The translations under genes and the position numbers were made by a program. A stretch of DNA of 64,000 bases from Jiangella muralis (lineage in GTDB: Bacteria; Actinomycetota; Actinomycetes; Jiangellales; Jiangellaceae), in NCBI RefSeq assembly GCF_001270745.1, contig NZ_KQ434758.1, positions 208,275-272,274 on the forward strand. Reading direction: 5' to 3'. Of the stretch, positions 29,328 to 45,604 are shown piece by piece (the stretch's first letter is position 1; each line of letters opens with the position of its first letter). The notes under the pieces were generated by a model. That model ran no database searches and was not told where the DNA came from. It was given only the letters and a program-made list of their open reading frames with translations.

Positions 29328-29399
29328 GTTGATCTTGGAGTAACCGTGGGATCAATCGGACATCTCGCCCCGCGACTCCACGCTTACTCCAAGATCAAC
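29328..29399. repeat. palindrome overlapping a gene 3' end
   Basis: Arms at 29328-29349 and 29378-29399 match over 22 bases with one mismatch; the outer 16 bases (core TTGATCTTGGAGTAA) are perfect. The intervening 28 bases and right arm encode the last ~15 residues and stop of the HpcH/CitE-like gene. It separates two leftward genes and may end the long ARH operon. Confidence 0.9.
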
Positions 29400-30209
29400 G
29401 GGGAGTGGGGTGGTGCGGGCGGCGAGGGCGAGCACCCGGCGGGCCTGGGCGACCATGGCGACGTCGACGAAGCGGCCACCGGGCAGGACGGCGACGCCGC
29501 CGGCGCCGACCGCGGCGACCACCTCGGCCGCCCGCTCCACCTCGTCCGCCGACGGGCGGAACCCCGCCTCGATGACTGGCAGCTGCTTCGGGTGGATCGC
29601 GGCCCGCCCGACGAAGCCGAGCGCGCGTCCGGCCCGGCACGACGCGGCCAGCCCGTCGTCGTCGCGCAGGTCGGCCCAGACGGCCATCGCCGGAGGCGGC
29701 AGCCCGGCCGCCCGCGCCGCGACCACCAGCCGCTGCCGGCACCACGCCAGCCCGTCCGGGCCCGAGACGCCCAGGTCGGAGGCGAGGTCGGCCTCGCCCA
29801 GCCCGATCGACGCCACACCGGGCGCCGACGCGACGGCGTACGCCGCCTCGACCCCGGCGGCCGTCTCCAGCAGCACGTGCACCGGCCGCGGCCCTGCCAC
29901 CGCGCGCACGGCGGCCACGTCCGCCGGCGACGACACCTTCGGCACCCGCACCCCGACGGACGGCGGCAGCCCGGCGACCATGGCGAGGTCGTCGGCGCCC
30001 CACGGGGTGCCGGGCGCGTTCACCCGCACCTGCACGGCCCGCTCGTCCGTCAACAACGAACCGACGCCGGCCCGCGCCGCGTCCTTCGCCGACGGCGCCA
30101 CGGCGTCCTCCAGGTCGAGGATCACGACGTCCGCCGCCGACGCGAGCGCCTTCGCCGCGCGGTCCGGCCGGTCGGCGGGCACGTAGAGCAGCGTCAGCAC
30201 CAGGCTCAC
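29352..30209 (-). CDS. HpcH/HpaI aldolase/citrate-lyase beta-subunit family (CitE-like)
   Basis: A 285-residue protein from a GTG at 30209 that overlaps the CoA-transferase stop by four bases (GTGA). CitE-type motifs: LLYVPADRPDRAAKALASAADVVILDLEDAVAPSAKDAAR (the metal- and phosphate-binding start of the barrel), VRVNAPGTPWG, LLETAAGVEAA (metal-binding Glu), GEADLASDLGV (metal-binding Asp) and IHPKQLPVI. Relatives cleave malyl-CoA, citramalyl-CoA or similar 3-hydroxyacyl-CoAs. Paired with the adjacent CaiB/BaiF protein it probably forms a CoA-activation/cleavage step. The substrate is not known. Confidence 0.85.
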   Translation of the reverse strand: MSLVLTLLYVPADRPDRAAKALASAADVVILDLEDAVAPSAKDAARAGVGSLLTDERAVQVRVNAPGTPWGADDLAMVAGLPPSVGVRVPKVSSPADVAAVRAVAGPRPVHVLLETAAGVEAAYAVASAPGVASIGLGEADLASDLGVSGPDGLAWCRQRLVVAARAAGLPPPAMAVWADLRDDDGLAASCRAGRALGFVGRAAIHPKQLPVIEAGFRPSADEVERAAEVVAAVGAGGVAVLPGGRFVDVAMVAQARRVLALAARTTPLPVDLGVSVESRGEMSD

Positions 30210-31393
30210 ACGACCCCCTCCGCCCGCAACGACGAGATGTCGCCGGCCGAGTACCCGAGCGACCCCAGCACCGCCGCGGTGTCGGCGCCGTGCGCCCGCC
30301 CGGTCCACCGCACCGATCCGGGCGTCTCGGAGAGCCGGAACAGCACGTTCTGCATCGCGACCTCGCCGAGGTCGTCGTCGGGCATCCGCAGCACCGTCCC
30401 GAGCGCGTCCAGCTGCGGGTCGGCGGCGATGTCGGACGCGTCGTAGACGGGCGCCACCGCGGCCTGCGCCTCCTCGAACTCCGCCACCACCTCGGACCGC
30501 GTCCGCGCGGCGACCCAGGCCCCAACGGCCTCGTCCAGCTCGTCCACATGCGAAGCCCGGCCGGCGCCGGTCGCGAACCACGGCTCGTCGACGACGTCGG
30601 GCCGCCCGACCAGCCGCATGACCCGCTCGGCGATGCTCTGCGAGCTGGTCGACACCGCGACCCAGCGGCCGTCCGACGTGCGGTAGGTGTTGCGCGGCGC
30701 GTTGTTCGCCGACCGGTTGCCGGTGCGCGGCTGCACCGTCCCCAACTGGTCCCAGCGGGTCAGCTGCGGCCCGAGCACGGACAGCATCGGCTCGACGATC
30801 GCGAGGTCGACCACCTGCCCGCGGCCGCTCGACGCCCGGGCGTGCAGCGCCGACGTCACCGCGAACGCCGTCGCCAGCGCCGTGATGCCGTCGGCCAGCC
30901 CGAACGGCGGCAGCGTCGGCGGGCCGTCCGGCTCACCGGTCATCGCGGCGAACCCGCTCATCGCCTCGGCCAGCGTGCCGAACCCGGGCCGCCGCCGGTA
31001 CGGGCCGACCTGGCCGAACCCGGTGACGCGGGCGAGGATCAGGCCCGGATTGTCGGCCGCCAGCGTGGAGTACCCGAGGTTCCACCGCTCCAGCGTGTCC
31101 GGCCGGAAGTTCTCGATGACGACGTCCGCCTCGCGGGCCAGCCGCCGGAACACCTCCTGGCCGCGCTCGTGCGACAGGTCCAGCGTCATCGTCTGCTTGT
31201 TCCGGCCGAGCGTCTTCCACCACAGGTTCTGCCCGTCCTTCGCCGGCCCGTGCCCGCGCGACGGGTCCGGGCGGCGCGGGTGCTCGACCTTGACGACGTC
31301 GGCGCCCATGTCGCCGAGGTGCATCGCGGCGATCGGCCCGGCGAACAGCGTCGCGGCGTCGACGACGCGCAGACCCGCCAGCGGCCCGCTCAC
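30206..31393 (-). CDS. CaiB/BaiF (class III) CoA-transferase
   Basis: A 395-residue protein, usual length for the family, which moves CoA between carboxylic acids through an aspartyl-CoA intermediate. [44 protein letters not shown] is the standard start. [30 protein letters not shown] and [15 protein letters not shown] follow, and the catalytic Asp is expected around [15 protein letters not shown]. The GTG at 31393 overlaps the upstream stop by four bases. Co-occurrence with a CitE-like lyase recalls itaconate, citramalate or malate CoA pathways, but the acid is not known. Confidence 0.88.
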
Positions 31394-33306
31394 GCCGTCA
31401 CCCCCACGGCGCAGCGGAACCCGACGGACGGCGAGCGGTCCAGCCCCGCACCCATGAGCAGGTACTTCGCCGAGAAGTCGGGTGTGCGGCGGCCGCCGTC
31501 GAAGTACCAGTCCGAGCCGGTCGGCACCCAGTCGGAGCCGCCCTTGAGGACGACGAACCGGGTGCGGCCGTCGGCGTGCTCGCTCTCGGTCAGGTTCCAG
31601 ACGGCGGGCGCGCCGCGCTCCAGCAGCCCGGCCTCGCCCGCGACCTGCCACTCGTCCTCGGTCGGCAGCCGCAGCCCGGCCCACGCGGCGTACGCGCGGG
31701 CGTCGGCGAGGTCGACGTACGTGACGGGGTCGGCGCCGCGCTGCTTCCCGTCGCGCCAGTGCGCGAGGAACCGCTCCGGGCGCACCGGCCGGTACCCGGT
31801 CGCGGCGAGGAACGCGGCGAACTCCTCGTTGGTCACCTCGGTGCGGCCGACGGCGAACGGCGGCACCTCCACGCGGCGGTGCGCGGTGCCGTCTGCGTGC
31901 AGCCGGGGCGGCAGCGGCTTCCACTCGTCGACGTACGGAGCCTCGTCGTACAGGCCGGTCTCCCGGATCCGGTACCGGACGACGAGGTCGTGCCGGCCGC
32001 CCTCCACCCTGGCCAGGCCGGGCGGCGTTTCGGCGACGGCCGCCGACGGCGCCGGCACCCGCACGGCCGGCCGCCGCGGGAACATCGCGTCGTCGTCCAC
32101 GACCACGGCACCCGGCGCCGCCGCCGCTGCGACGACCGCTGCCACGCCGCCGGCCGGCAGCCGCCCGCCGATCACCGTCCGCCCGTCCTCGTCCTTCGTC
32201 ACCGACAGCGCGGTGCCGGTGGTCAGCTCGGTGAACGCGCCCGTCGCTTCCACCGCCAGCCACGGGCCGTCCCACTCGGCGTCGCTCCGGTTCACGACGG
32301 TCCACAGCGGCACGCCGTCGTGCACCCACCGCGACGCGTACACCGGTGCGCCGTCGCCGGGGTGGTCGGCCAGCGGCGTCCAGTCATCGCCCTGGAGCCA
32401 GTCGCGGTACTCGCGCTGCACGCGGCGCATCGAGCGCAGCAGCGACCGGTCGCGCGCGCTCCAGCCCACCCACACCCCGAACACCGTCTCCCACACCAGC
32501 AGCCCGGAGCCGTTCAGCCAGGCCGACTGCAGCTCCTCCAGGTGGCTGTGGTTCCAGCGGCGGGTGTGGTGCAGTACGTGCCGCCGCTCGAACCAGGTCG
32601 CGCGCAGCACGCCCGGCACCGGCGAGTCGGCGAACCACTGCGCCCACGACATCGTGTGGTCGTGCACGCGGGCCAGCGGCAGCCGCGACTCGCCCTCCAT
32701 CGACAGCCCCGGCCGCAGCGCGTCCAGCCCGGCCCGGACCTCGGCCGAGCCCTCCTTCGAGCTGTCCAGGAAGACGCCGTCGGCGCCGAGCCGCTCGACC
32801 AGCGCGACGACGGCCGCGGGGTCGGACGACTCCCACGGGTAGTAGGAGACGAACACCCGCACGCCGGCGGCCTGGAAGGCGGCGACGACGGACGGCAGCT
32901 CGGGCACGTCGAAGAAGGCGAACTGGTCGCGCCCGTCGATGCCCTCGTTCGGGTACGCGTGCCAGAGCACGACCCCGTCGAAGCCGCCGAACTCGCGCGC
33001 CGCCGCGGCCAGGTAGCCGTCGACGTCGAACCGGCCGGTCGCGTGGTCGTACAGCAGCTCGTCCCAGAGCCAGGCCAGCGCGACGACGAAGCCGTCGGTC
33101 CGCTCGACGTCGTAGCGCGACCCGTCGTAGCCGGCCCGGGCGCCGTCGCGCCAGCGGGTGAGCGCCGCCCGCCAGGCCGGCCAGTCGGCCGGGTCGTCCG
33201 GCGCGGCGAAGATCTTCGCCTCGTCCAGCACCGCCAGGTCGGCGTCCGGCGCCAGCGGCACCGCCGCCGGCCGGTCGATCGGGCGCGGCACGTACGGGTT
33301 CAGCAT
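31390..33306 (-). CDS. fusion: glycosidase-like TIM barrel + SUMF1/EgtB-type domain
   Basis: A 638-residue cytoplasmic protein without signal peptide. The first ~400 residues look like a (beta/alpha)8 glycoside-hydrolase fold: [57 protein letters not shown] and [10 protein letters not shown] provide candidate catalytic Asp/Glu. The last ~160 residues show SUMF1 (formylglycine-generating enzyme-like) hallmarks: [62 protein letters not shown] and [10 protein letters not shown]. The two copper-binding cysteines of true FGE are not visible, so formylglycine formation is unlikely and the domain may bind carbohydrate or another ligand. Overlaps its neighbours by 1 and 4 bases. Confidence 0.7.
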
Positions 33307-34193
33307 CAGCCCTCCGTGAGGAATGCGTCGATCTCGGCTCGGTCCGGCATCGACGACGACGCGCCGGCCCGCCGCACCGACAGCGCGGCCGCCGCCGACG
33401 CCCGTCGCAGCGCGTCGTCCCAGTCCAGGCCCTCGGCCAGGCCGACGGCGAGCACCCCGGCGAAGGTGTCGCCGGCCGCCGTCGTGTCGACCGCCTCGAC
33501 CTCGAACGCGGGCACCCGCGTCTCCGTGCCGCCGCCGACCCGCAGCGCGCCCCGTCCGCCCAGCGTCACGACGACGTCGCCGCCGCCCGCCGCCAGCGAT
33601 CGAGCCGCCTCGACCGGGTCCGCGAAGCCGGCCAGCAGCGCCGCCTCGTGCTCGTTCGGCACCAGGACGTCGACCGCGGCCAGCAGCTCCGCGGGCAGCG
33701 GCACCGCGGGCGCCGGGGTCAGCACCACCCGCACGCCGCGCGACCGTGCGTACCGCGCCGCGGCCGTGACCAGCGGCAACGGCAGCTCCAGCTGCATCAT
33801 GACGAGCTGCGCCCGGTCCAGCACGGCCCGGTGCGCGTCGGTCAGCTCCGTCACCGTCCCGTTCGCGCCCGGCACGACGACGATCGAGTTGTCGCCGGTC
33901 GCGTCGACGGTGATGTGCGCGGTCCCGGTCGGCCGGTCGCCTACCGCCAGCCCGGACACGTCGATCCCCGCGTCGGCCAGCAGCGTCGTGATGCGCCGGC
34001 CGAAGTCGTCGTCGCCCACGGCGCCGAGGAACGCGACGTCGCCGCCGGCCCGCGCGGCCGCGAGCGCCTGGTTCGCGCCCTTGCCGCCGGGGACCGTGGT
34101 GAAGGTGTGGCCGGTGACGGTCTCGCCGCGGCCCGGCGCGCGGTCGACGGTCGCGACGAGGTCCATGTTGGCGCTGCCCAGGACGGCGATCAC
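33306..34193 (-). CDS. rbsK: ribokinase (PfkB family)
   Basis: A 295-residue kinase starting at a GTG that overlaps the preceding stop by four bases. Ribokinase signatures: [57 protein letters not shown] (substrate-binding GGKGANQ), [18 protein letters not shown] and [21 protein letters not shown] (anion hole and catalytic Asp). It should make ribose 5-phosphate from ribose and ATP, though PfkB kinases vary in sugar preference. Its place directly after four ARH-family genes fits phosphorylation of ribose released by N-glycoside cleavage. Confidence 0.88.
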
Positions 34194-35524
34194 GGCGCGC
34201 TCACCGCCACCGTCCGGGCCGCGAGCACGTCGAAGCCGATGCCGTCGAACCCGGCCAGCGTCGTGCCGACCCGGTTGCGCAGCGGCGCGATCCACCGCTC
34301 GGGCAGCGCGGCGGCGCCGGTCAGCCCGCCGACGACCGAGCCGACGGTGGCGCCGTTGGAGTCGGTGTCCCAGCCGCCGCTGACGACGGCCGTGATCGAC
34401 CGCTCGTAGTCGCCGCCACCGTGCACCAGCGCGGCCACGACCAGCGCGGCGTTGTTCAGGACGTGCACCCAGTGCAGGTGCCCGTAGCGCGCCTCGATCG
34501 CGTCGACGACGGCCTCCCAGTCAGGCTCCTTCTCGGCGGTCGCACGCGCGAACCGGACCGCCTCGGCGTAGCGCGACGACGCCGGGACGACGGACAGCCC
34601 GGCGTCGATCACGTCGTCCACCGTCGCCGCGACCAGCGACGCGGCGCACGCCGCGGCCGCGAACAGCTCGCCGTACACGCCGTTGCGGGTGTGGCTGAGC
34701 ACGGCGTCGCGCCAGGCCAGCCCGGCCGCTCCGGCGGGGTCCCCGGGCCGGGCCCAGCCGAACACGTCGCCGCGGATCTGCGCGCCGATCCAGTCCCGGA
34801 ACGGGTTGCGCACCGTCGCCGTGGCCGGCGGCAGGTGGCCGAGCAGCAGGTTGCGGTAGGCGACCCGCTCGGCGGTGAACACCCGCCCGGCCGGCAGCTC
34901 TGCCAGCCAGCGCTGCGCGACGTCCACGGTGGTGAACCCGGCGCCGTGGGTCTCCAGCAGCGCGAGGTTGAGCATCGGGAAGTTGAGGTCGTCGTCCTCG
35001 GGCATGCCGTCGATGTTCTCGGCCAGGCTGGTCGCCGCGCTCCGGCGGTTCCACGGATGGCGGGCCGCGACGTCGGCGGGCAGGCCCACCGCGGTGAACC
35101 AGTCGGTCAGCGGCCAGCGGCCGGTCGCCTCCAGGATCTCCCGGATCCCGGCCCGCGAGATCTTCTCCACCGGCTTGCCGAGCAGGCACCCGGCGGCGCG
35201 GCCGAGCCAGGCGCCGTGCAGGCGGTCGAGGTCGGCGGCCTCGCGTCGAGCGTTCGCCGGCCAGCCCGCCTCGATCGAGGCCAGGTCCGTCGGCTCCAGA
35301 GCGTCGTACGGCGACGGCCGCGTGTCGAGCTCGTCCAGCAGCCGCGCGGCCAGCGCCCGCAGCTCCGGCGCAGGGACGTCCGAGGCCCCCGTCCGCACCG
35401 GCGCGTCGTCACCACCGGCCGCGACCCACCGGGCCCGCAGGTCCGCGACGTCGACGCCGTCCTCGTCGGCCTGCGCGAACGCGTGCCCGGCCAGGTCCTC
35501 CGGCTGGATCCAGGTGAGCCGCAT
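34190..35524 (-). CDS. ADP-ribosylglycohydrolase family protein, long variant (ARH-D)
   Basis: A 444-residue ARH-superfamily protein with a ~90-residue N-terminal extension. The first metal motif, normally GDxxG, reads [17 protein letters not shown]. The second, normally TDDT, reads [17 protein letters not shown]. The third is canonical-like: [25 protein letters not shown]. This combination marks a distinct ARH subfamily seen in sugar-utilisation loci rather than protein de-ADP-ribosylation enzymes. It should still bind metal via the acidic residues, but activity is unproven. ATG at 35524 overlaps the upstream stop by one base (TGATG). Confidence 0.82.
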
Positions 35525-36669
35525 CAGGCCAGCCCGCCGAAGGCGGCGTCGACGGCCGCCCGCCGGGCCGCGTCCGCAGCCCGCACCGACGCCGTCACCG
35601 CCGCCAGCCGCTCCCCCGGCCCGGTGATGTCGACCTTGCTGGCCGCCGCGACCGCCGTCACCAGGTCGGCCGGCACCGCGGCGCGCCCGCCGAGGGCACC
35701 GGCGATGGCCCCGGCCATCGACGCGATCGAGTCGGAGTCGCGACCGTAGTTGACGCCGCCGACGACCGCGTCGCGCCAGTCGCCGCCGGCGATGGCCAGG
35801 AACCCCAGCGCGACCGGCAGCTCCTCGATGGTGTGCACGCGGCTCGGGCGGCGGGCGCCGAGGCCCTGGTTGCGGTAGTCGTCGCCGACGGTGTCGTACG
35901 GGCCGACGGCGGCGCGCAGCTTGCCCGACTCGACCGCCTCGGTCCAGTGCCCGATCGACGCCGCCGTCTCCAGCACCGCCTCGATGCCGGCCCTCGTCCC
36001 GTCCTTGGCCAGCCGCACCGCCGTCGCCAGCACGTCGTCGACCGTCGCCCCAGGCGCCGCGGCCGCGGCCACGCAGGCCGCCATGACACCGGCCGCCTCG
36101 CGCCCGTAGGACGACTGGTGCGCGCCCGCGACGTCGATGGCCTCGGCGTAGGCGGCGTCCGGGTCGGCGGCGTTGACGATGCCGACCGGCGCGATGTACA
36201 TGGCCGCGCCGCAGTTCACCGCGTTGCCGACGCCGGCCTCACGCGGGTCGGCGTGCCCCCAGTGCAGCCGCAGCGCCATGAACTTCTCCGCGAGGAAGAC
36301 CCGCTGCAGCGGCAGCGCCTCGGCCTCCAGCTCGGGGATCCAGACCTTGCGGCCGATCATCAGCGGCACCAGCCGCTCGGCGACGTCGTACGCGGTCAGG
36401 TGTGCCCCGGCCTGCTCATACACGTCGACCACCAGGTGCGTCATGAGGGTGTCGTCGGTGACGTGGCCGTCGCCCTTGTGGTACGGCGCGATGGGCCGCG
36501 CGGTGCGCCAGTCCTCGTAGTACGGCGGGACGATGCCCTCGACCCAGCCGCCCCACCGGTCCCGGATCTGCTGCGGCGACCAGCCCTCCGTCGCACCACC
36601 GAGCGCGTCGCCGACAGCGGCTCCCGTCAGGCATCCGACCGCGGTATCGATGAGTGCGTCGTTGCTCAA
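35524..36669 (-). CDS. ADP-ribosylglycohydrolase family protein (ARH-C)
   Basis: A 381-residue protein from a TTG at 36669 overlapping the previous stop by four bases, with AGGA seven bases upstream. All three ARH metal-binding motifs are intact: TGAAVGDALGGATEGWS (GD), GDGHVTDDTLMTHLVV (TDDT) and NYGRDSDSIASMAGAIAGALGG (DxDS). The middle contains MYIAPVGIVNAADPDAAYAEA, also typical. ARH enzymes hydrolyse N- or O-glycosidic bonds of ribosyl groups using two Mg2+. With ABC permeases and ribokinase nearby, a small riboside is a more likely substrate than modified protein. Confidence 0.88.
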   Translation of the reverse strand: MSNDALIDTAVGCLTGAAVGDALGGATEGWSPQQIRDRWGGWVEGIVPPYYEDWRTARPIAPYHKGDGHVTDDTLMTHLVVDVYEQAGAHLTAYDVAERLVPLMIGRKVWIPELEAEALPLQRVFLAEKFMALRLHWGHADPREAGVGNAVNCGAAMYIAPVGIVNAADPDAAYAEAIDVAGAHQSSYGREAAGVMAACVAAAAAPGATVDDVLATAVRLAKDGTRAGIEAVLETAASIGHWTEAVESGKLRAAVGPYDTVGDDYRNQGLGARRPSRVHTIEELPVALGFLAIAGGDWRDAVVGGVNYGRDSDSIASMAGAIAGALGGRAAVPADLVTAVAAASKVDITGPGERLAAVTASVRAADAARRAAVDAAFGGLA

Positions 36670-37712
36670 AGGATCGTCCTTTCCTCGATGGAGCCCGCCA
36701 GCTCGACCAGGTCGAGTCCGGCCAGATCGGGCGCGCAGCAGCCGGCGAGTCGCCGGCACCGCTCGGCCCAGGTCGTGGGGAGTGCGCTCAGGCCGTGCGC
36801 CGCGCCGGCGAGGGCTCCCGTCAGTGGCGGCGCGCTGTCGGCCAGGGTGGGCAGGCAGGCGGCGGCGGTGACCGCGGCGATGGGTGGTTCCCCGCCGCGC
36901 TCCGCGGCCAGCGCCAGCGCGACGGCGACCGGCAGCGTCTGCGCCGCGGCGACGCCGTAGCTGTAGACGTGACCGGCCGGCTCGTCCAGCAGCGGGACGG
37001 CGTCGGCGGCGGTGGTGACCCCGGCCGTCGCCACTTGCGCCCGGGCGAGGTTGTCCGCCAGCAGGGTGTCCGGTGGGACGTGCTCGGCGGCGGCCGCCGC
37101 CCATGCCGTGGCCAGCGGTTCGCCGCGGACCAGCCGCGCGATCGTCGCGGCCACCGCCCGCGCCGCGGACACCCCGTCACCGGCGTTCGTCACCTCGGCG
37201 TCCCAGCCGGCCAGCGTGGCCGCCGTGCCGCTGCCGTCGGCCACCAGCCCGGCCGCGACCGCCCGCACCGCCGCGGCGTCGTCGAAGTGGTGCGGGTTGT
37301 CGTGCCCCGTCACCGGCGGATCGACGTCTCTGCGCAGCGCGTCGGCCGCGGCGGCGACGCTGATCCGGCCGCGCGGCAGTGTCCCGTTCGTGGCCGCCGT
37401 CCGCCACCGCTCGTGGACGTCGCCGCGCGTCAGCGGCTTGCTCGCGGCGCCGAGCCAGGTCAGCGTCCACGCCACCCACTCCGCGTCGTCGGACGGGCCC
37501 AGCCGCAGCGGCGCCGTCGGCTGATTCAGCGCGAACGGCACCGGCAGGGACGTCACCTGCTCGGTCTCGGCGAACGCGTCCAGCTCGCGGTGCAGCCGCC
37601 GGGTCCACGGCGGCAGCAGCGCCGCCCGGTGCCGCGCCGACGGCCACCCCGCGGCGTCGCCGATGGCGAGCCCGAGCAGCGCCCCGGCGATCAGGTCCTG
37701 CCGTTCCCTCAC
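36666..37712 (-). CDS. ADP-ribosylglycohydrolase family protein, degenerate (ARH-B)
   Basis: A 348-residue protein from a GTG at 37712 with a strong GGAGGA site six bases upstream; this start gives RERQDLIAGALLGLAIGDAAG, aligning with family N-termini. The GD motif is present, the TDDT motif is replaced by GPSDDAEWVA, and the C-terminal motif reads TLADSAPPLTGALAGAA, lacking the usual acidic pair DxD(S/T). It may therefore bind metal poorly, act as a non-catalytic partner, or have shifted specificity. It is translationally coupled to the intact ARH-C gene. Confidence 0.8.
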   Translation of the reverse strand: MRERQDLIAGALLGLAIGDAAGWPSARHRAALLPPWTRRLHRELDAFAETEQVTSLPVPFALNQPTAPLRLGPSDDAEWVAWTLTWLGAASKPLTRGDVHERWRTAATNGTLPRGRISVAAAADALRRDVDPPVTGHDNPHHFDDAAAVRAVAAGLVADGSGTAATLAGWDAEVTNAGDGVSAARAVAATIARLVRGEPLATAWAAAAAEHVPPDTLLADNLARAQVATAGVTTAADAVPLLDEPAGHVYSYGVAAAQTLPVAVALALAAERGGEPPIAAVTAAACLPTLADSAPPLTGALAGAAHGLSALPTTWAERCRRLAGCCAPDLAGLDLVELAGSIEERTIL

Positions 37713-37763
37713 GAACCGTCCTCCCGCCGTGCACCGCACCCCGCCGGCCGCGCGTGTCGAACG

Positions 37764-37832
37764 TTGTCGGTGCCCGCCCCTAGGGTGGGCCCCACCCGGG
37801 CCGGGAGGGGTCGACCTACCACCTCGCGTGGC
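37764..37832 (+). promoter_or_regulatory. orphan RecA-NDp-type (PafBC) promoter motif, copy A
   Basis: TTGTCGGTG at 37764-37772, eight bases, then TAGGGT at 37781-37786 match the actinobacterial SOS-independent DNA-damage promoter pattern TTGTCRGTG-N8-TAGNNT used by PafBC. The 69-base segment aligns without gaps to 49323-49391 (58 identical by my count). It reads rightward, but both neighbours read leftward, so it drives no visible gene; the start codon seen in copy B is lost here. Confidence 0.65.
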
Positions 37833-37884
37833 ACACAACGCACCGGACGCGAGCTCCGCGGCGCCGTCCGCCCCAGCCGTCCCG

Positions 37885-38838
37885 TCACTCGTCCTCCAGG
37901 TGATCGGCCAGCCGGTCGGCCAGGTCGAGCGGATGCAGCCCCGCCACCACCTCGCCCAGGCAGCGGCCGGTGACCGGCCCGATCTGCTCCCGCCACCGCG
38001 CCGGCACCGCGTCCAGGCCGCCGAGCGCCCCGGCCAGCGCCCCGGCGATGGCGGCGGTGGTGTCGGCGTCGCGGCCCATCGACACCGCCCCCGTGACGGC
38101 GTCGGCGAACCCGCCGCCCGCCGCGAGGAACGCGCCGAACGCCAGCGCGACCGCCTCCGGCGCCAGGTCCGTCCACGGATACGACCGGACGACGACGGCG
38201 TCCAGCAGCGCGGGCACGTCCCCCGCGTGGACCAGCGCCGACCGCAGCGACCGCGCCGTCCACGAGTCGGCCGGGACGGCGGCCAGCGCGGCGGCGCCGA
38301 CCTCGGCGGCGGAGGCGTTCCCCGTCATCGCGACGGCGACCGCGGCGGCCACCGCGACCCCGGCGTGCACGCCCTCGCCGTCGTGGCTGACCGCGCCGTC
38401 GACGGTGGCCAGGCGAGCGGCCAGCAGCGGGTCGCCGGCCGCGTACACGCCGTGCACCGCGGCCCGCATCGCCAGCCCGTCGCTCCAGGAATGCAGGTGC
38501 CGCCCGCTGGCCGGCGGCCGCAGTCCGGCCCGCAGGTTCTCGATGGTGCCCAACTCGCTGAACCCGGCGCCGGAGAACCCGCCGGACTGCCCAGCCAGGT
38601 GCGTGATCCACGCGTCGGCCACGTGCTCGCTGGTCAGCCTGGCGCCGTGGTCGAGCAGCAGCAGCGCGCTGAACGCGGCGTACTCGGTGTCGTCGGTCCC
38701 CGACGGCCGGTCGGTGAGGAACCCCGTCACCGTGCCCCAGCGGGCCGCGATCTGCTCGGCCGTCAGGTTCTCCGCGGGGGCGCCCATGGCGTCGCCGATG
38801 GCGAGCCCGAGCAGGCACCCTCGCGCGCGGTCCCTCAT
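37885..38838 (-). CDS. ADP-ribosylglycohydrolase family protein, canonical (ARH-A)
   Basis: A 317-residue protein with all ARH metal motifs: GCLLGLAIGDAMGAPAENL at the N-terminus, GTDDTEYAAFSALLLLDHG near residue 47, SHDGEGVHAGVAVAAAVAVAM, and VSMGRDADTTAAIAGALAGALGG near 255. ATG 38838 has GGAGGA seven bases upstream. This is the first enzyme gene after the ABC transporter genes, 34 bases beyond the solute-binding protein stop. It should be an active metal-dependent ribosyl hydrolase; ADP-ribosyl-protein, ADP-ribose-like and nucleoside-like substrates are all possible. Confidence 0.9.
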   Translation of the reverse strand: MRDRARGCLLGLAIGDAMGAPAENLTAEQIAARWGTVTGFLTDRPSGTDDTEYAAFSALLLLDHGARLTSEHVADAWITHLAGQSGGFSGAGFSELGTIENLRAGLRPPASGRHLHSWSDGLAMRAAVHGVYAAGDPLLAARLATVDGAVSHDGEGVHAGVAVAAAVAVAMTGNASAAEVGAAALAAVPADSWTARSLRSALVHAGDVPALLDAVVVRSYPWTDLAPEAVALAFGAFLAAGGGFADAVTGAVSMGRDADTTAAIAGALAGALGGLDAVPARWREQIGPVTGRCLGEVVAGLHPLDLADRLADHLEDE

Positions 38839-38872
38839 CGACTACTCCTCCGAACTCGCCGCGCCACCGCCG

Positions 38873-40177
38873 TCAGCGGTTGTAGCGCTCCAGGATCTCG
38901 TTGCCGTCCTCGGTCAGCCGGGTGCCGAGCTCGTCCAGCGAGATCGCGTTGGCGAAGAACTCCTCGATCGACGGGTTGGCGACCTTGTTCTTCCACTCCT
39001 CGTAGCCGCGGACCCGCTGGAACGGCGCCTGCTCGAGGAACGTCCCGGACGCGGCCGCGACGGGCCAGTCCGGCGTCTCGGTCAGGACGGGGTCCTCGGC
39101 GGCCGCGGAGCTCGCCGGGATCATCCAGTCGCCCTTCGCCAGCAGCGCCTGGTTCTCCGGGTTGAGCATGTACTCGAGGAAGGCCATCGCCTCCTCGGGG
39201 TGCTCGGACTCGGCCGCGACCGAGATCGTCTGCGGCGCCGCCGCCTGCGCCTGCGAGTCGCCCTCCAGCGCCGGGATGGTCACCCACTCGAAGCCCTCGG
39301 GGGCCTGGTCGATGATCTGCTGACGGAACCAGATGCCCTTCGGGAGCATGGCGTACTGGCCGGCGAAGAAGCCCGGCAGCGGGTCGGAGCCGCCCATGCC
39401 GATGGCGTCGGTCGCGGCGCTCTTGTCCACGTAGAGCTGGTCGTAGATGCGCTGGAACGCCTCCTTCTCCGGGTCGCCGAAGATCGCCGTGCTGGCGCCG
39501 TCGGACTCCTCGAAGAACCCGCCGCCGAAGTTCATGGCGAGGTTGAGCATCCGGTTGGCCGGGTCCTTCAACGTCCACGCCACGCCGAACGTGTCGGCGT
39601 CGGTGAGCTGCGTCGAGATGTCGGCGAACTCGTCCCACGTCCACGGGTCGTCCGGCGTGGGCACCGCGATGCCGGCCGCGTCGAGCAGCGTCTTGTTGGC
39701 GAAGATCACCTGCGCGTCCAGCAGGAACGGCACCGCGTAGACGGAGTCGTCGAACGTGACCGCCTCCCACGCGCCGTCGAGGATGTCGTCGGTCAGCGTC
39801 TCCGGGACGAGGTCCGTGAGGTCGAGGATCCAGCCGCGGTCGGCGAAGTCCTGCAGGTAGGACGCCTCGTAGTGGACGAGGTCCGGAGCGGTGCCGCCCT
39901 CGAACGCCGTCACCAGCTGGTCCTGCACCGAGGCCCAGTCACCCTGCAGGTACTCGACCTGGATGTCGGGGTTGTCGGCGTTCCACTGCTCGATGATCTG
40001 CTGGTTCGCCGCGATGGACTCCGGCTGGAAGGCCAGGCTCTGGAAGGTCAGCGTCACCGGGTCGCCGCCGCTGCCCGTCCCGGCGCCGTCGCCGTCTCCG
40101 TCGCCGGAGCCGCAGCCGGCCAGCACGAGGCCGGCGCTGAGGACGCCGGCGGACACGATCGTTGCTGCTCTGCGCAC
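38873..40177 (-). CDS. ABC transporter solute-binding lipoprotein (CUT1 sugar type)
   Basis: A 434-residue lipoprotein from a GTG at 40177 with AGGAGG four bases upstream. Lipobox SAGLVLAGCGSG, then a family-1 extracellular solute-binding domain: VTLTFQSLAFQPESIAANQQIIEQWNADNPDIQVEYLQGDW, APDLVHYEASYLQDFADRGWILDLT, WTWDEFADISTQL, and MLPKGIWFRQQI. Family members bind oligosaccharides, glycerol phosphates or glycosides. Its ligand is likely the compound that the ARH proteins cleave. Confidence 0.9.
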   Translation of the reverse strand: MRRAATIVSAGVLSAGLVLAGCGSGDGDGDGAGTGSGGDPVTLTFQSLAFQPESIAANQQIIEQWNADNPDIQVEYLQGDWASVQDQLVTAFEGGTAPDLVHYEASYLQDFADRGWILDLTDLVPETLTDDILDGAWEAVTFDDSVYAVPFLLDAQVIFANKTLLDAAGIAVPTPDDPWTWDEFADISTQLTDADTFGVAWTLKDPANRMLNLAMNFGGGFFEESDGASTAIFGDPEKEAFQRIYDQLYVDKSAATDAIGMGGSDPLPGFFAGQYAMLPKGIWFRQQIIDQAPEGFEWVTIPALEGDSQAQAAAPQTISVAAESEHPEEAMAFLEYMLNPENQALLAKGDWMIPASSAAAEDPVLTETPDWPVAAASGTFLEQAPFQRVRGYEEWKNKVANPSIEEFFANAISLDELGTRLTEDGNEILERYNR

Positions 40178-40203
40178 GATCCCTCCTGGGGTGATGTGGG
40201 TGG

Positions 40204-41040
40204 TCAGGACTTCACCGCGCCGCCGAGCATGCCCCCGACGAGACGGCGTTGGATGATGGCGAAGAAGACGAGGCTCGGGATGGTGGCGACGAGCGCGGCG
40301 GCCGCCAGCGGGCCCAGCCGCGCCACCCCCTCCGCCCCGATGAACTTCACCAGCGTCAGTGAGATGGTCTGCAGCTCCGGCGTGCGGAGCAGGACCAGGG
40401 CGAACAGGAACTCGTTCCACGCCGAGACGAACGCGAACAGCGCGGCCGCGACGACACCGGGCACCAGCAGCGGCGCGACGATGTCCTTGAGCGTGCGGAG
40501 CTTGCCGGCACCGTCCATCGCGGCGGCCTCCTCCAACTCGACCGGGATGCCGACGACGTAGCTGCGCAGCATCCACAGCGCGAACGGCATGCTCCAGACG
40601 ACGTAGACGATGATCAGGCCGAGCTGCGTGTCGTAGAGCCCGGCGTCGCGCAGCAGCAGGAACAACGGGATGATCACCAGGATGAACGGGAACATCTGGC
40701 TCAGCAGCACCCAGAGCATCGTCATCCGGCTCAGCGCCGAGCGGTAGCGCGCCATCACGTAGGCCGCCGGGATCGACAGCAGCACCGTCACCAGCGCCGA
40801 GGTGCCGGCGATGATCAGCGTGTTGAGCAGCGCCCGGGCCAGCGGCTGCTGCTCGAACGCGAGCCGGAAGTTGTCCAGCGTCGGCTCGGCCGGGATGATC
40901 GTCGGATCGATCAGCGCCATCTCCTGCGGCGGCTTGAACGCCGTCGAGATCAGCCAGAGCAGCGGGAAGGCCAGGAACACCAGGTACGCGACCAGCGCCA
41001 CGTACTTCGCCGGCGTCGCCAGCGTGCGGAAGCCGCGCAT
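40204..41040 (-). CDS. carbohydrate ABC transporter permease (MalG-like)
   Basis: A 278-residue inner-membrane protein with six predicted hydrophobic segments, the first being YVALVAYLVFLAFPLLWLI. The cytoplasmic EAA loop EEAAAMDGAGKLRTLKDIVAPLLVPG, which contacts the ATPase, is present. It forms the membrane channel with the preceding permease. ATG 41040 follows the upstream stop after two bases. No ATPase gene is in the operon; a shared MsiK-type ATPase probably serves it. Confidence 0.9.
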   Translation of the reverse strand: MRGFRTLATPAKYVALVAYLVFLAFPLLWLISTAFKPPQEMALIDPTIIPAEPTLDNFRLAFEQQPLARALLNTLIIAGTSALVTVLLSIPAAYVMARYRSALSRMTMLWVLLSQMFPFILVIIPLFLLLRDAGLYDTQLGLIIVYVVWSMPFALWMLRSYVVGIPVELEEAAAMDGAGKLRTLKDIVAPLLVPGVVAAALFAFVSAWNEFLFALVLLRTPELQTISLTLVKFIGAEGVARLGPLAAAALVATIPSLVFFAIIQRRLVGGMLGGAVKS

Positions 41041-41042
41041 GA

Positions 41043-41978
41043 TCAGCCCTCCTCCCGGTAGCGCCGTCGTAGGTAGAACACGACGAACACGGCGATCACC
41101 AGCACCATCGCGTTGCCCAGCGCGGCCGCGTAGCCGTAGTTGCCGTAGCGGAAGGCCTCCTCGTACGCGAACAGCATCGGCAGCCGGGTCGAGCCGCCCG
41201 GCCCGCCCTCGGTGAGCACGTACACGAGGCTGAAGGAGTTGAAGTTCCAGATGAAGTCGAGCGTCGTCATCGCCGTGACGATGGGGCGCAGCGCCGGCCA
41301 CGTCACATTACGGAACCGCTGCCACGGTCCCGCGCCGTCGACCGCGGCCGCCTCCTTCAGCTCCTCGGACACGCTCTGCAGGCCGGCCAGCAGCACCACC
41401 GTCGTCTGCGGCATGCCCGACCACACGCCGACGACGATGACGGCGGGCAGTGCCAGCGACAGCGAGCTGAGCCATTCGACGTTGGAGTCGATGATCCCGA
41501 GATCCTTGAGCGTGCTGTTCAGGATGCCCGCGTTGGGGTGGTACACCAGCCGCCACATGATGCCGATGACGACCGGCGGCATCGCCCACGGCACCAGCGC
41601 CAGCGTGCGGGCCAGCCAGCGCAGCCGCAGCTTCTGGTTGAGCAGCAGCGCGAGGCCGAGGCTGGCGAAGAACTGCAGGACCGTGACGCAGAACGCCCAG
41701 ATCAGCCCGATGCGGAAGGAGTCCCAGAAGTACGAGTCGCCGAGCAGCTGGGTGTAGTTGTCGAAGCCGGTGAACGACGTCTGGCTGTTGCGCCCGGCCT
41801 CGGCGTCGGTGAACCCCAGGTAGATGCCGCGCAGCAGCGGGTACATGCTGAACAGCACGACCGGGATCAGCGCCGGCACGGCGAGCAGCAGCCCGTCGCG
41901 GTCCAGCCCGAGGAAGCCCTTGCGCTTCGGCTCCGTGGGCCGGGTCGCGGGTCGTCGCGCGGTGGCGGTGGCGCTCAT
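41043..41978 (-). CDS. sugar ABC transporter permease (MalF-like)
   Basis: A 311-residue membrane protein with an N-terminal cytoplasmic tail (ARRPATRPTEPKRKGFLG) and six hydrophobic segments (LLLAVPALIPVVLFSMYPLL first). EAA loop: LKEAAAVDGAGPWQRFRNVTWPALRP. The segment VYVLTEGGPGGSTRLPMLFAYEEAFRYGNYGYA is typical of CUT1 MalF-type permeases. Its ATG overlaps the lacI stop by four bases (ATGA), so the regulator and transporter are one transcript. Confidence 0.9.
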   Translation of the reverse strand: MSATATARRPATRPTEPKRKGFLGLDRDGLLLAVPALIPVVLFSMYPLLRGIYLGFTDAEAGRNSQTSFTGFDNYTQLLGDSYFWDSFRIGLIWAFCVTVLQFFASLGLALLLNQKLRLRWLARTLALVPWAMPPVVIGIMWRLVYHPNAGILNSTLKDLGIIDSNVEWLSSLSLALPAVIVVGVWSGMPQTTVVLLAGLQSVSEELKEAAAVDGAGPWQRFRNVTWPALRPIVTAMTTLDFIWNFNSFSLVYVLTEGGPGGSTRLPMLFAYEEAFRYGNYGYAAALGNAMVLVIAVFVVFYLRRRYREEG

Positions 41979-42979
41979 CGGCTGCTCTCCCGGACGGTCA
42001 GCGACGGCGGGACGGTGACCCGCTCGGGCGGCGCGTCGTCGCCGTCGAGCCGGCGCAGCAGCAGCTCCGCGGCGATGCGGCCACGGTCGGCCGAGCCGAG
42101 GGAGACGCTGGACAGCGGCGGGAAGCTGGTGGCGGCCAGCGGGGTGTCGTCCATGCCGACCACCCGCACGTCGCCGGGGACGTCGCGGCCGAGTTCGCGC
42201 AGCGCGTGCAGGGCGCCCATCGCGATGAGATCGTTGGCGCCGAACACGGCGTCGACGTCCGGGTGTTCGGTGAGCAGCTCGCGCGCCGTCTGGCGGCCGG
42301 CGTCGAACCGGAAGTCGGTGAACCGGATCAGCGCGTCGTCCGTCTCCCGGCCGGCCGCCGCGAGCCCCATGCGGTAGCCGTCGTAGCGGGCCCGGCCGGG
42401 GACGGTGTCCAGCGGGCCGTCGATGAACGCGATGCGGCGGGCGCCGGCCTCGGCCAGGTGCTGGACCGCCAGCTGCGCACCCACCCGCGAGTCGGCCCGC
42501 ACGTTGTCCACCGGTACGTCGTCCGGCAGCAGGCCGATCACCACGACCGGGACGGCGGTCTGCCGCAGCGCCTCGACGTGCCGGTCGGTGACGCGCAGCG
42601 GGCACAGGATCAGCCCGTCGACGTAGTTCTGGCTGAGGCTGGCCAGCACCCCCAGCTCATCCTCGACGTCGGCGCCGGTGCTGTGCAGCAGCAGCCGGTA
42701 GCCCTCGTCCCGCAGCGTCGGCTGGATGCGGCGGACCATCTCGAGGTATGCGGCGTTGCCGATGTCCTCCATCGCGAACGCGATCTGCCCCGTGTGCCGC
42801 GTCTTCAGCGACTGCGCGACGACGCTCGGGACGTAGCCGACCTCCCGGACCGCGGCGTTCACCCGGGCGACCATGTCGGCGTTGGAGGTGTTGCCGTTGA
42901 GCGCGCGCGACACCGAGGAGATCGAGACCCCGGCGACCTTGGCCACCTCGTGAATCGTCGGCCGACGGCGCTGCGACAC
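41975..42979 (-). CDS. LacI family transcriptional regulator
   Basis: A 334-residue regulator from a GTG at 42979, with GAGGAGG nine bases upstream; a longer in-frame start at 43072 lies beyond both operators and was rejected. The DNA-binding domain PTIHEVAKVAGVSISSVSRALNGN is at the N-terminus, followed by the hinge VGYVPSVVAQSLKTRHTGQIAF and a periplasmic-binding-type ligand domain (DGLILCPLRV, FIDGPLDTVPGRARYDGYRMGL, VFGANDLIAMGALHAL). It heads the ARH operon and probably represses it until its sugar or riboside ligand binds. Palindromic operators lie 30 and 66 bases upstream and before the divergent esterase gene. Confidence 0.92.
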   Translation of the reverse strand: MSQRRRPTIHEVAKVAGVSISSVSRALNGNTSNADMVARVNAAVREVGYVPSVVAQSLKTRHTGQIAFAMEDIGNAAYLEMVRRIQPTLRDEGYRLLLHSTGADVEDELGVLASLSQNYVDGLILCPLRVTDRHVEALRQTAVPVVVIGLLPDDVPVDNVRADSRVGAQLAVQHLAEAGARRIAFIDGPLDTVPGRARYDGYRMGLAAAGRETDDALIRFTDFRFDAGRQTARELLTEHPDVDAVFGANDLIAMGALHALRELGRDVPGDVRVVGMDDTPLAATSFPPLSSVSLGSADRGRIAAELLLRRLDGDDAPPERVTVPPSLTVRESSR

Positions 42980-43008: not shown

Positions 43009-43020
43009 GGAACCGTTTCC
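43009..43020. promoter_or_regulatory. LacI-family operator, imperfect (O2)
   Basis: GGAACCGTTTCC differs from the perfect palindrome GGAAACGTTTCC at one position. It is 30 bases before the lacI start codon, overlapping the likely transcript start region, and suits autorepression. Confidence 0.65.
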
Positions 43021-43044: not shown

Positions 43045-43056
43045 GGAAACGTTTCC
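43045..43056. promoter_or_regulatory. LacI-family operator, perfect (O1)
   Basis: GGAAACGTTTCC is a perfect 12-base palindrome with the central CG typical of LacI/GalR-family operators. It is 36 bases from the imperfect site, in front of the leftward operon. Confidence 0.75.
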
Positions 43057-43350: not shown

Positions 43351-43362
43351 GGAAACGTTTCC
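43351..43362. promoter_or_regulatory. LacI-family operator, perfect (O3), before esterase gene
   Basis: A second perfect GGAAACGTTTCC lies 26 bases before the esterase ATG. Its identity with O1 suggests the adjacent LacI protein also controls the divergent secreted esterase. Confidence 0.7.
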
Positions 43363-43387: not shown

Positions 43388-45604
43388 ATGGCGGCATTGA
43401 ACCGGGCGACGACAGTGGCGGCGGCATCCTTGCTGCTCGCAGCCCTGCACGTCGCCACGTCGGGCTCGGGGTCGGGGCCGGAGTCCGGCACCGAACCGGC
43501 CGCGGGCACCGTCGTGACCGGGACGGCGCCCGCCGGGGCCGCCGGCGTGGCCGTCGAGTACGCCGCCTACCTGCCCGCCGGCTACGAGGACGGCGACGAC
43601 GAGTACGCCACGATCTACCTGCTGCACGGCCGCGGCGACACGATGGCCGCCTGGCAGCAGGTGAGCGCCGACCTCGACCGCCTGATCGCCGACGGGACGG
43701 TGCCGCCGCTGATCGCGGTCATGCCGGACGCGCCGTGGAGCGACCGCGGCAACTGGTACGTCGACTCCCTGCACACCGGCGGCGCGGCGGTCGAGACGGC
43801 GATCACGCAGGACCTGGTCGCCCACGTCGACGATACCTACCGGACGGTCGCGGACCGCGACGCGAGGGCCGTCGGCGGGTACTCGATGGGCGGGTACGGG
43901 GCGCTCCGCTACGCCCTCGCCCACCAGGACGTCTTCGCCGCCGGCCTGGTGCTCAGCCCGGCCGCCTACGTGCCGCTGCCGCCGGCCGACTCGTCGGCGC
44001 GCGAGTTCGGCGGCTTCGGCCGCGGTGACGCCGCCTTCGACGACGCCAGGTACACCGAGCTGAACTACCCGGCGCTGCTCGGCGCCGTCGACCCGGAGCT
44101 CCCGACGCACCTGTACATCGCGGTCGGCGACGACGAGTGGGCGAACCCGGCGCCCGAGGACGCCCAGCACGACATCGACTTCGAGTCCGCCCGGCTGTAC
44201 AACGCGGCCAGGCGCGTGGACGGCGTGACGGCGGAGCTGCGCGTGCTCGACGGCGGGCACGACTGGGACGTCTGGCGCCCGGCGTTCCGCGACGGTCTCG
44301 CCGACGTCGCCGGCCGGCTGCGCACCACCGACCCGATCCCGCTGCCCGGCGCCATCACCGGCACCGGCGGCGACGACCGCGCGGGCGGCGTCGCGGTCAC
44401 GGCCGACGGCGGCACCGTCACCGCGGTCAACGAGGGCGGCGCCGGCCCCGTCCTCAGCAGCGACGACGGCTGGACGCTGCGGCTCGTCCCCGCCGGCCGG
44501 GTCTACGGCCCGCGCACCGGCCCGGGCGGTGACCTCTACACAGCCGGCTACTCCGGCGGCGACGCGTTCGGAGCGCGGGTGACGCCCGCCGGCGAGACGG
44601 CCTGGCTGACGCGGTTCGGCCACCCGGCCGCGGCCGACCGCGCCTACGCGAGCGTCCCGGCGCCGGACGGCGGGCTCTACGTCGCCGGCTACACCAGCGG
44701 CAGCGTCGGCGGCACCCCGAACGCCGGCGACAAGGACGCACTGCTGGCCCGGTTCGACGCGGCCGGCGAGCTGCTCTGGACCCGCCAGGTCGGCGGCCCC
44801 GGCGAGGACAAGGCGCTGGACGTCACGATCGGCGCCGACCGCCGCGTCTACGTCGCGGGCGTCACGTCGCAGGCGATGCCCGGTGCGACGGCGCACGGCG
44901 GCCTGGACGCGTGGGTCGCCCGGTTCACCGACGCCGGCCAGCAGGACTGGCTCAGCCAGTTCGGCACCACCGAGAACGACCAGTTCAGCGCACTCGCGCC
45001 GCTACCGACGCAGGGCGTGGTCGCCGTCGGCCACACCGGCGGAACCCTGGGCGCGGCGAGCTCAGGCGGCAACGACCAGCTCGCCGTCGCCGTGACGTCG
45101 TCGGGCCGGGCCCGCTGGATCACCCAGGACGGCACCGGCGGCGACGACCGCACGGCCGCCGTGCACGTCGGGACGGACGGGACCATCACCGTCGCCGCCC
45201 ACACCGACGGGCGGGCCGGCGTCAGCGCGGGCGGCGTGGACGTCGTCGTCAGCACGCTCGGCAGCCGCGGCCAGGGTGTGTCTCCCGGGTCTCGGCCGTC
45301 GCGAGCGGCGTCCAGGTGGATGCCTCGCAAGGCCGAGGAAGGAGACATAGCGGTGCCTATGGCGACTGACGAGAACGCAGCGAGGCGCCGCCTGGGCGTC
45401 GCGCAGCAGGCCACGGACCCGGGAGACACACCCTGGGTGCGCGAGCGCACCCAGTTCGGCACGCCGGAGCGCGACGGCGCCGACGAGTGGGACGAGGCCA
45501 ACCTCTACCTCGACGCGACCGGCACCCTGATCACCGGCCTGACGTTCGGCGGCGGCCGCGGGCTCGGTGACGTGTTCACCGGCCCGCTGCCGTCACGCCG
45601 CTAG
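43388..45604 (+). CDS. secreted esterase (EstA/EstD-like) with C-terminal SBBP beta-propeller; carries an in-frame insertion
   Basis: A 738-residue protein. An N-terminal hydrophobic signal (TVAAASLLLAALHVATS) is followed by an alpha/beta-hydrolase of the esterase-D family: IYLLHGRGD, nucleophile S166 in VGGYSMGGYGALRYAL, and catalytic His in LDGGHDWDVWRP near 290. Relatives deacylate feruloyl or acetyl sugars. From about residue 335 a beta-propeller has SBBP-like repeats (LLWTRQVGGPGEDKALDV, DWLSQFGTTENDQFSAL). A 53-residue, Arg-rich segment unlike the rest interrupts the last blade, between Q and WVRERTQFGTPE, and coincides with the hairpin element at 45271-45436. The stop shares the palindrome CTAG with the convergent thioredoxin gene. 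Confidence 0.82.
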   Translation: MAALNRATTVAAASLLLAALHVATSGSGSGPESGTEPAAGTVVTGTAPAGAAGVAVEYAAYLPAGYEDGDDEYATIYLLHGRGDTMAAWQQVSADLDRLIADGTVPPLIAVMPDAPWSDRGNWYVDSLHTGGAAVETAITQDLVAHVDDTYRTVADRDARAVGGYSMGGYGALRYALAHQDVFAAGLVLSPAAYVPLPPADSSAREFGGFGRGDAAFDDARYTELNYPALLGAVDPELPTHLYIAVGDDEWANPAPEDAQHDIDFESARLYNAARRVDGVTAELRVLDGGHDWDVWRPAFRDGLADVAGRLRTTDPIPLPGAITGTGGDDRAGGVAVTADGGTVTAVNEGGAGPVLSSDDGWTLRLVPAGRVYGPRTGPGGDLYTAGYSGGDAFGARVTPAGETAWLTRFGHPAAADRAYASVPAPDGGLYVAGYTSGSVGGTPNAGDKDALLARFDAAGELLWTRQVGGPGEDKALDVTIGADRRVYVAGVTSQAMPGATAHGGLDAWVARFTDAGQQDWLSQFGTTENDQFSALAPLPTQGVVAVGHTGGTLGAASSGGNDQLAVAVTSSGRARWITQDGTGGDDRTAAVHVGTDGTITVAAHTDGRAGVSAGGVDVVVSTLGSRGQGVSPGSRPSRAASRWMPRKAEEGDIAVPMATDENAARRRLGVAQQATDPGDTPWVRERTQFGTPERDGADEWDEANLYLDATGTLITGLTFGGGRGLGDVFTGPLPSRR
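45271..45436 (+). repeat. 166-bp hairpin element inserted in frame, perfect 21-bp terminal inverted repeats
   Basis: Left arm 45271-45291 and right arm 45416-45436 are perfect inverted complements; the core is GGTGTGTCTCCCGGGTC. Inside, 45313-45336 and about 45380-45402 are a second long complementary pair. Its differences at three positions are all consistent with G-U wobble on the plus strand (they would be C-A mismatches on the minus strand). Removing 45275-45433 (159 bases, 53 codons) restores an uninterrupted propeller blade. No transposase and no target duplication are visible. Confidence 0.85.

Follow-up and report, generated by a model that had tools for sequence, protein, structure and literature searches.

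A 64,000-nucleotide stretch of the Jiangella muralis assembly GCF_001270745.1 (contig NZ_KQ434758.1, positions 208,275 to 272,274; hereafter the window, with positions counted from its first base) carries twelve genes on the minus strand between 42979 and 29352, in a 7.27 Mb actinomycete assembly. They encode a LacI-family repressor, two permeases and the solute-binding protein (SBP) of an ATP-binding cassette (ABC) importer, four proteins of the ADP-ribosylglycohydrolase (ARH) family PF03747, called here ARH-A to ARH-D, a ribokinase, a fusion protein with a SUMF1-like domain, a CoA transferase (CaiB) and a CoA ester lyase (CitE) (Table 1). The initial annotation had described twelve leftward, mostly overlapping genes; indeed, neighbouring genes share 1 or 4 bases at seven of the eleven junctions, and the remaining gaps measure 2, 26, 34 and 172 bases. 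A profile search of the whole genome detected four PF03747 genes, all of them inside this block.

Table 1. Features of the twelve-gene block and its upstream region (window coordinates)
Feature	Position	Strand	Remarks
LacI-family repressor, GTG start	41975..42979	-	best NCBIfam match RbsR, score below its cut-off
ABC permease A	41043..41978	-	BPD_transp_1
ABC permease B	40204..41040	-	BPD_transp_1
Solute-binding lipoprotein	38873..40177	-	SBP_bac_1
ARH-A	37885..38838	-	PF03747; 4/4 metal-motif Asp kept
ARH-B	36666..37712	-	PF03747; sister of ARH-A; first Asp of C-terminal DxD substituted
ARH-C, TTG start	35524..36669	-	PF03747; rhizobial orthologues
ARH-D	34190..35524	-	PF03747; N-terminal extension of ~100 residues
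Ribokinase (PfkB)	33306..34193	-	above TIGR02152 cut-off
FGE/SUMF1-like domain fused behind unassigned N-terminal part	31390..33306	-	present in 14/20 fetched loci
Family III CoA transferase, CaiB/SUGCT-like (CoA_transf_3)	30206..31393	-	
CitE-like CoA ester lyase (HpcH_HpaI/CitE)	29352..30209	-	RipC-like, score below cut-off
Imperfect operator copy	43009..43020	.	36 bp from perfect dyad
Perfect operator dyad GGAAACGTTTCC before lacI	43045..43056	.	
Second perfect operator dyad, before divergent esterase gene	43351..43362	.	
Divergent PF00756 esterase	43388..45604	+	secretion signal judged by eye

The PF03747 scores of ARH-A, ARH-B, ARH-C and ARH-D are 173.4, 86.9, 167.7 and 164.3 bits, respectively, for a Pfam gathering score of 26.2. 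The DD and DxD aspartates of these proteins, which from ARH3 and DraG we take to be the ligands of a two-metal site, were compared in 151 ARH stretches from 61 loci, the main counts being made on sequences of at least 300 bits. Both Asp pairs were intact in ARH-A (28/28), ARH-C (34/34) and ARH-D (29/29), and all four Asp were retained in 28 of the 33 sequences below 300 bits. In ARH-B, the first Asp of the DxD motif was replaced in 27 out of 27 sequences (13 Leu, 9 Val, 3 Gln, 1 Ala and 1 Asn), and the sequence with Asn had lost all four. The structural model of ARH-B (predicted local distance difference test, pLDDT, 77.9) nevertheless matches ARH3, DraG and MJ1187 with template modelling (TM) scores of 0.5-0.7, and its fold is therefore kept. 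The natural reading is that ARH-B is a metal-site-impaired partner of ARH-A, which aligns with DraG across both metal motifs; ARH-B may instead have an altered catalysis. The view of the initial annotation that all four proteins hydrolyse successive or variant substrates is thus doubtful.

To these motifs may be added the phylogeny of the family. In a quick LG+G4 tree built from 89 of these 151 stretches, with several long branches flagged, ARH-A and ARH-B came out as sister clades, with approximate likelihood ratio (SH-aLRT) supports of 99 for A and B together with the B' proteins, 95 for A and a weaker 76 for the core of B. The ARH-C clade takes in rhizobial proteins (support 100), and ARH-D (a weaker 80) lies on one side with the rhizobial ARH700 proteins described below (100). 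The A'-B' pairs of three other loci (L122, L123 and L125) occupy matching places in the A and B clades, which is what joint inheritance of A and B since their duplication would give. ARH-A with ARH-B, and ARH-C with ARH-D, would act as pairs.

Regarding uptake, two permeases and an SBP_bac_1 lipoprotein form the composition of what we take to be a CUT1-type importer. The solved relatives of the SBP are diverse and mostly bind sugars or oligosaccharides. No ATPase gene is found among the twelve; MsmK-like candidates, 57% and 56% identical to the rhizobial UgpC, are encoded elsewhere in the genome. When ten window proteins were scanned against NCBIfam, the ribokinase was the only one above a curated cut-off, with 310.9 bits against 299.65 for TIGR02152 (PRK11142, at 281 against 341, was not reached), in agreement with the identity given by the initial annotation. 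Since it belongs to this kinase family, ribose is the probable sugar released. Alternatively, the sugar could be another pentose or a hexose furanoside for which the kinase has shifted its specificity: the kinase family is broad and the gene is missing from some loci. However, the window kinase scores above the ribokinase cut-off and is best matched, among solved structures, by ribokinases, so that such a shift seems improbable.

The two CoA-related proteins are more loosely assigned. The closest matches of CaiB are succinate-glutarate, formyl-CoA and mesaconate CoA transferases, all below the NCBIfam cut-offs, and CitE is nearest to RipC (147.7 bits against a cut-off of 375), the CitE equivalog scoring 114.2 against 443.4. 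By their best matches they resemble itaconate/citramalate degradation and SUGCT, where a CoA transferase goes with a CitE-type C-C lyase; the window proteins differ in that they fall far below the curated cut-offs and that no hydratase gene is present among the twelve. In Rhodococcus opacus a CaiB homologue adjoins genes for an SLC13 permease, PrpF and CoA ester lyases, and in Haloferax another adjoins genes resembling those of HMG-CoA lyase and isopropylmalate dehydratase.

The twelve-gene block is real and widely conserved. In a first survey, 40 relatives were searched for PF03747, which gave a match in 27, and 20 regions were fetched. The ARH quartet was present in 18 of 21 genomes of the same genus or family, being split between contigs in one of them (G002), and was not found in the other three (G012, G013, which is 81% complete, and G014, 75% complete). 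The order LacI-PermA-PermB-SBP-A-B-C-D was observed in all 17 loci of this group that lack an upstream contig break, and the ribokinase, CaiB and CitE genes follow the quartet in the same 17, CitE being shifted by 0.8-2.2 kb in three. One further genome (G039, locus L024) carries A-B-C-D-ribokinase-CaiB-CitE without importer homologues and groups with Streptomyces in the ARH tree.

An ARH-B profile scan of named genomes was then restricted to the best 80 of at least 536 confirmed relatives, ten of which (L025-L031, L033, L034 and L059) come from genomes already among the fetched regions. As these loci were picked by ARH-B similarity, their counts overstate conservation; a gene is called not found when tblastn gave no hit of 50 bits. 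The nearest named relatives at the locus are Jiangella species. The conserved co-occurrence in other actinomycetes that the initial annotation had proposed to look for was found, as ARH-A-B-C-D follow each other in order in 76 of the 80 loci. The four exceptions are L062 and L090, which start at ARH-B, L067, without ARH-A, and L068 (Actinomadura), without ARH-C. Three of the 76 (L069, L081 and L084) stop at a contig end inside ARH-D; they were counted as D-positive, and any ribokinase, CaiB or CitE gene would lie beyond their contigs. These three genes lie beside the quartet in 66, 67 and 66 of the 80 loci, respectively. Jiangellaceae, Streptosporangiaceae, Allokutzneria and Streptomyces share this gene order. 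The condition under which the initial annotation would have called a joint pathway unlikely, an order conserved in no relative, therefore does not hold, and its proposal of a joint system is supported. When genomes were drawn evenly across the class, ARH-B-type genes were detected in 51 of 296 of them and in 9 of 105 genera; the 51 include 18 other genomes of the same genus or family and the window's own.

The same genes also recur in other arrangements. One genome (G159) carries them reordered as CaiB-CitE-LacI-PermA-PermB-SBP-C-D-A-B, and no ribokinase gene was detected there before the contig ends. Two others (G055 and G102) have an A'-B' pair divergent from a LacI-SBP-permease set and no ARH-C match in the genome at an E-value of 1e-60; in G055, CaiB and CitE genes (67% and 50% identical) form a pair some 8 kb away from A'-B', near IclR, RraA-like and DctM genes. 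A second ARH cluster in G009 (L125, C1:6279000-6298500) has an A'-B' pair opposite LacI, an ARH-D relative, SBP, permeases and ribokinase. Separately, G001 contains two more divergent ARH genes back to back, adjoining an SBP homologue (L139, C1:1676000-1680000).

Plasmids gave a further set: 17 ARH places, picked by identity and annotation from searches of 30 and 22 records, were opened. Nine rhizobial loci (L105, L109 and L111-L117) share the order LacI-permease-permease-SBP-ARH-C-ARH700. CaiB follows further on in five of them (L105, L113, L114, L115 and L117), CitE in four (L105, L113, L114 and L117) and ribokinase in one (L112, past UgpC). Downstream in L109, L111 and L116, CaiB and ribokinase were both not found; L116 has a ribokinase-like match upstream on the opposite strand. 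These loci share the transporter class of the window, and in Ensifer (L105) ARH-C is 42%, the ARH-D-like domain 28%, CaiB 44% and CitE 33% identical to the window proteins; they differ in that no A/B pair was detected in them and in that the second ARH carries about 400 extra residues. In L108, ARH-C stands alone, without ARH700. In Mycolicibacterium and Deinococcus plasmids an ARH-D relative is paired with a CUT1 importer and a ribokinase. This recurrence across phyla argues for a single physiology in which importer, ARH, kinase and CaiB/CitE can all take part, the kinase and CaiB/CitE each being optional. In rhizobia, too, CaiB/CitE accompany an ARH and an importer, a point missed by the initial annotation; this suggests that the compound has a carboxylic-acid part. 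Chance or local assembly of unrelated genes is ruled out by the conserved order together with the reshuffled recurrences.

Upstream of lacI, the dyad GGAAACGTTTCC was found as two exact copies in the assembly, both at this locus (starting at 43045 and 43351), and its reversed sequence, used as a control, had none. The imperfect copy beside the first dyad would make a twin operator. The predicted operator is thus adjacent to the repressor gene and present nowhere else in the assembly, as for a LacI protein that regulates its own gene. In 17 of the 18 quartet-bearing relatives (the genome with the split quartet was omitted), 28 exact copies were counted, 26 of them beside the cluster; the other two directly precede esterase homologues (77% and 81%), near contig ends. 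One relative (G015) had no exact copy. The 12-base core was present in the window, L012, L014 and L022 and absent from L065, and a stricter 16-base dyad rule gave no match in any of these five. A variant dyad, GTAAACGTTTAC, occurs at some Streptosporangiaceae and Actinacidiphila loci; before ARH-A in ten Streptomyces loci no GGAAACGTTTCC-type dyad was found, and two unrelated dyads were present. The second perfect dyad of the window precedes the divergent PF00756 esterase gene, which is also present in at least 8 of the 17 relatives and whose product has a sub-threshold beta-propeller repeat match. The Jiangella regulon therefore seems to comprise the operon and, in the window and these relatives, the esterase. 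An esterase gene preceded by the operon's own operator is a hint that an ester may be the source of the imported compound.

We propose, with a confidence that falls somewhat short of even, that these genes form a LacI-controlled catabolic operon for a conjugate of ribose and a hydroxy acid, which would be handled by the importer, the ARH proteins, the ribokinase and CaiB/CitE. The CUT1-type importer would take up a glycoside or ester that joins ribose to a hydroxy-(di)carboxylic acid. The bond at C1 of ribose would be hydrolysed by the ARH proteins, A and B working as one unit and C and D as another, and the ribokinase would phosphorylate the freed ribose. CaiB would load CoA onto the freed acid, and the CitE-like lyase would split the resulting acyl-CoA into acetyl-CoA and an oxo product. 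Every enzymatic activity of this route is a predicted one, and its weakest link is the carboxylic aglycone, which is suggested by CaiB and CitE and by some of their other neighbourhoods. A broader version, in which a catabolic ARH branch does not act on ADP-ribose and comprises four ancient paralogues in two co-inherited pairs (A-B being active and metal-site-impaired, respectively) that split ribosides or 1-O-acyl ribosides of hydroxy-dicarboxylic acids and so supply ribose to the ribokinase and the acid to the CoA transferase and lyase, appears rather unlikely as a whole. No described counterpart of the proposed ribose/acid route was found among open-licence PubMed Central papers, and a literature search of the same papers found none treating the quartet as a metabolic operon.

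Related gene sets that include an ARH gene are known. The Bacteroides ribose-utilisation locus rus, which resembles the window by gene content only, combines a ribokinase with riboside hydrolase genes including one of the ARH type; uptake there proceeds through a SusCD outer-membrane system. In the cited passages, the staphylococcal cluster SERP2216-2218 encodes an ARH, a permease and a ribokinase (PMC3637587); it resembles the window, by gene content only, in bringing ARH, transporter and ribokinase together, and differs in having one ARH, a cytosine/purine-type permease and, in the table passage, no CaiB/CitE. The excerpt on E. coli yegTUV likewise describes an ARH gene, whose repressor responds to ADP-glucose (PMC10819704). 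Here again the likeness is one of gene content only: ARH, sugar kinase, transporter and a single-target repressor; the differences are the single ARH, a major facilitator superfamily symporter putatively for nucleosides and a GntR-type repressor. As far as these excerpts go, single-ARH transporter-kinase clusters are thus already in print.

These precedents bear on a second explanation, namely that the operon serves generic nucleoside or ribose salvage and that CaiB/CitE belong to a separate carboxylate pathway sharing the promoter. The staphylococcal ARH adjoins a purine/pyrimidine-type permease and a ribokinase (PMC3637587), and the yegTUV ARH a putative nucleoside symporter and a sugar kinase (PMC10819704), each according to the part of the source cited. 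Moreover, some loci lack CaiB/CitE, ribokinase-only variants exist, and some of the stretches shown contain CaiB/CitE-like pairs but no ARH genes. By contrast, the window importer is CUT1-like and not a nucleoside permease, and CaiB accompanies an ARH-C orthologue and an importer in five of the nine rhizobial loci and also stands beside the reshuffled G159 quartet. Such a salvage function is in our view doubtful.

Several observations count against the ribose-hydroxyacid proposal. CaiB and CitE remain below all the curated NCBIfam cut-offs that they matched. CaiB homologues are numerous and their surroundings vary: of six other neighbourhoods, two are carboxylate-like, three not clearly so and one unannotated. 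Among the best 80 loci, no CaiB/CitE genes were found next to the quartet in seven Nonomuraea loci, in two Streptosporangium loci, one of which ends directly past the ribokinase, too early to tell, and in Actinomadura L068; in N. gerenzanensis the quartet and a close CaiB-CitE pair are about 580 kb apart. Nine Streptomyces loci, Actinopolymorpha L032 and L068 of the same set gave no ribokinase next to the quartet, and importer and LacI homologues of the window type adjoin the quartet in a single Streptomyces locus (L053). The pathway would therefore be split or variable in those taxa. Finally, the response of the yegTUV repressor to ADP-glucose, as excerpted, leaves room for an ADP-sugar as the substrate.

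The last point leads to a third explanation, in which the block is an ADP-ribose or ADP-sugar module whose four DraG-like hydrolases reverse the ADP-ribosylation of proteins or small molecules. All four proteins score above the PF03747 cut-off, ARH-A, ARH-C and ARH-D retain the metal motifs, ARH-A aligns with DraG over both of them, and the sensing of ADP-glucose in the yegTUV system (PMC10819704, in part) points the same way. The Streptomyces loci are also relevant here. In the flanks of L037, L050, L074 and L092 the quartet lies between gltBD, the glutamate synthase genes, and lgt/trpA, these genes being on the other strand; unlike in the window, the Streptomyces quartet usually has no window-type importer or LacI next to it. 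Using what we take to be the gene numbers of gltB and lgt in S. coelicolor, the synteny of these other Streptomyces loci, rather than the S. coelicolor genome itself, makes it very likely that SCO2028-2031 are the same quartet; SCO2038 belongs to the trpCXBA locus, according to the portion cited of PMC5036795. In the excerpts concerned, SCO2028-2031 are termed uncharacterised DraG/ARH homologues (PMC9411070) and SCO2028-2030 are listed among DraG/ARH hydrolases (PMC5087735), that is, as candidate ADP-ribosyl hydrolases and not as members of a sugar operon. The cited passages of PMC10434189 proved irrelevant to this operon.

Against such a module, purified SCO2028 and SCO2030 had no activity on U-alpha-ADPr, the one substrate concerned (PMC13036486, as excerpted), and none of the four window proteins reaches the cut-off of DraG (TIGR02662, best 53.3 against 337.05) or Tri1 (NF041672, 38.5 against 490). 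In addition, a sugar importer, LacI and ribokinase stand in one block with the quartet in several taxa. We consider this explanation quite unlikely, and the ADP-ribose-like substrate of the initial annotation is left unsupported, given an importer of the sugar type and the inactivity of SCO2028 and SCO2030. The distinction matters, as ARH proteins are mostly regarded as enzymes that erase ADP-ribosylation, and those of S. coelicolor were counted among its hydrolases on sequence alone. If the quartet belongs to a sugar pathway, a sizeable share of the actinomycete 'DraG homologues' would be mislabelled, and a compound of ribose and an organic acid would await identification. The question is testable at the locus, which offers one operator, a binding protein and four purifiable ARH proteins, with S. 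coelicolor as a genetic model that very likely carries the quartet.

Among the remaining genes, the SUMF1 fusion is the one member of the block whose assignment changed. The gene families of the initial annotation stand, including the four PF03747 proteins, except for the 'glycosidase' half of this fusion. Its N-terminal half had no Pfam match even at an E-value of 10, and a sequence search returned mostly FGE-, EgtB- and other SUMF1-type chains, aligned to the C-terminal part. Foldseek matches included amylase-type, GH30 and FGE chains among others, at TM scores of 0.12-0.18 by query length; they were not used because the model was too poor (pLDDT 51), and the glycosidase family name was dropped.

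ARH proteins of about 700 residues are encoded at L105:10223-12322, L107:10082-12184 and L110:5677-7812, and their C-terminal 400 residues or so matched no Pfam family at an E-value of 0.001. At the Deinococcus ARH locus, a 370-residue protein without Pfam match (L107:6703-7815) lies between the SBP and ARH-D genes. Next to the window operon, an open reading frame judged by eye to encode a PrmC/HemK-like methyltransferase (28550-29305, minus strand) begins 46 bases past citE and could be a thirteenth operon gene; it has SPPY in place of the usual N/DPPY, and a similar protein is called in four quartet loci. Beyond it, a gene with a PF00246 zinc carboxypeptidase domain (25931-28501, plus strand) is convergent with the operon.

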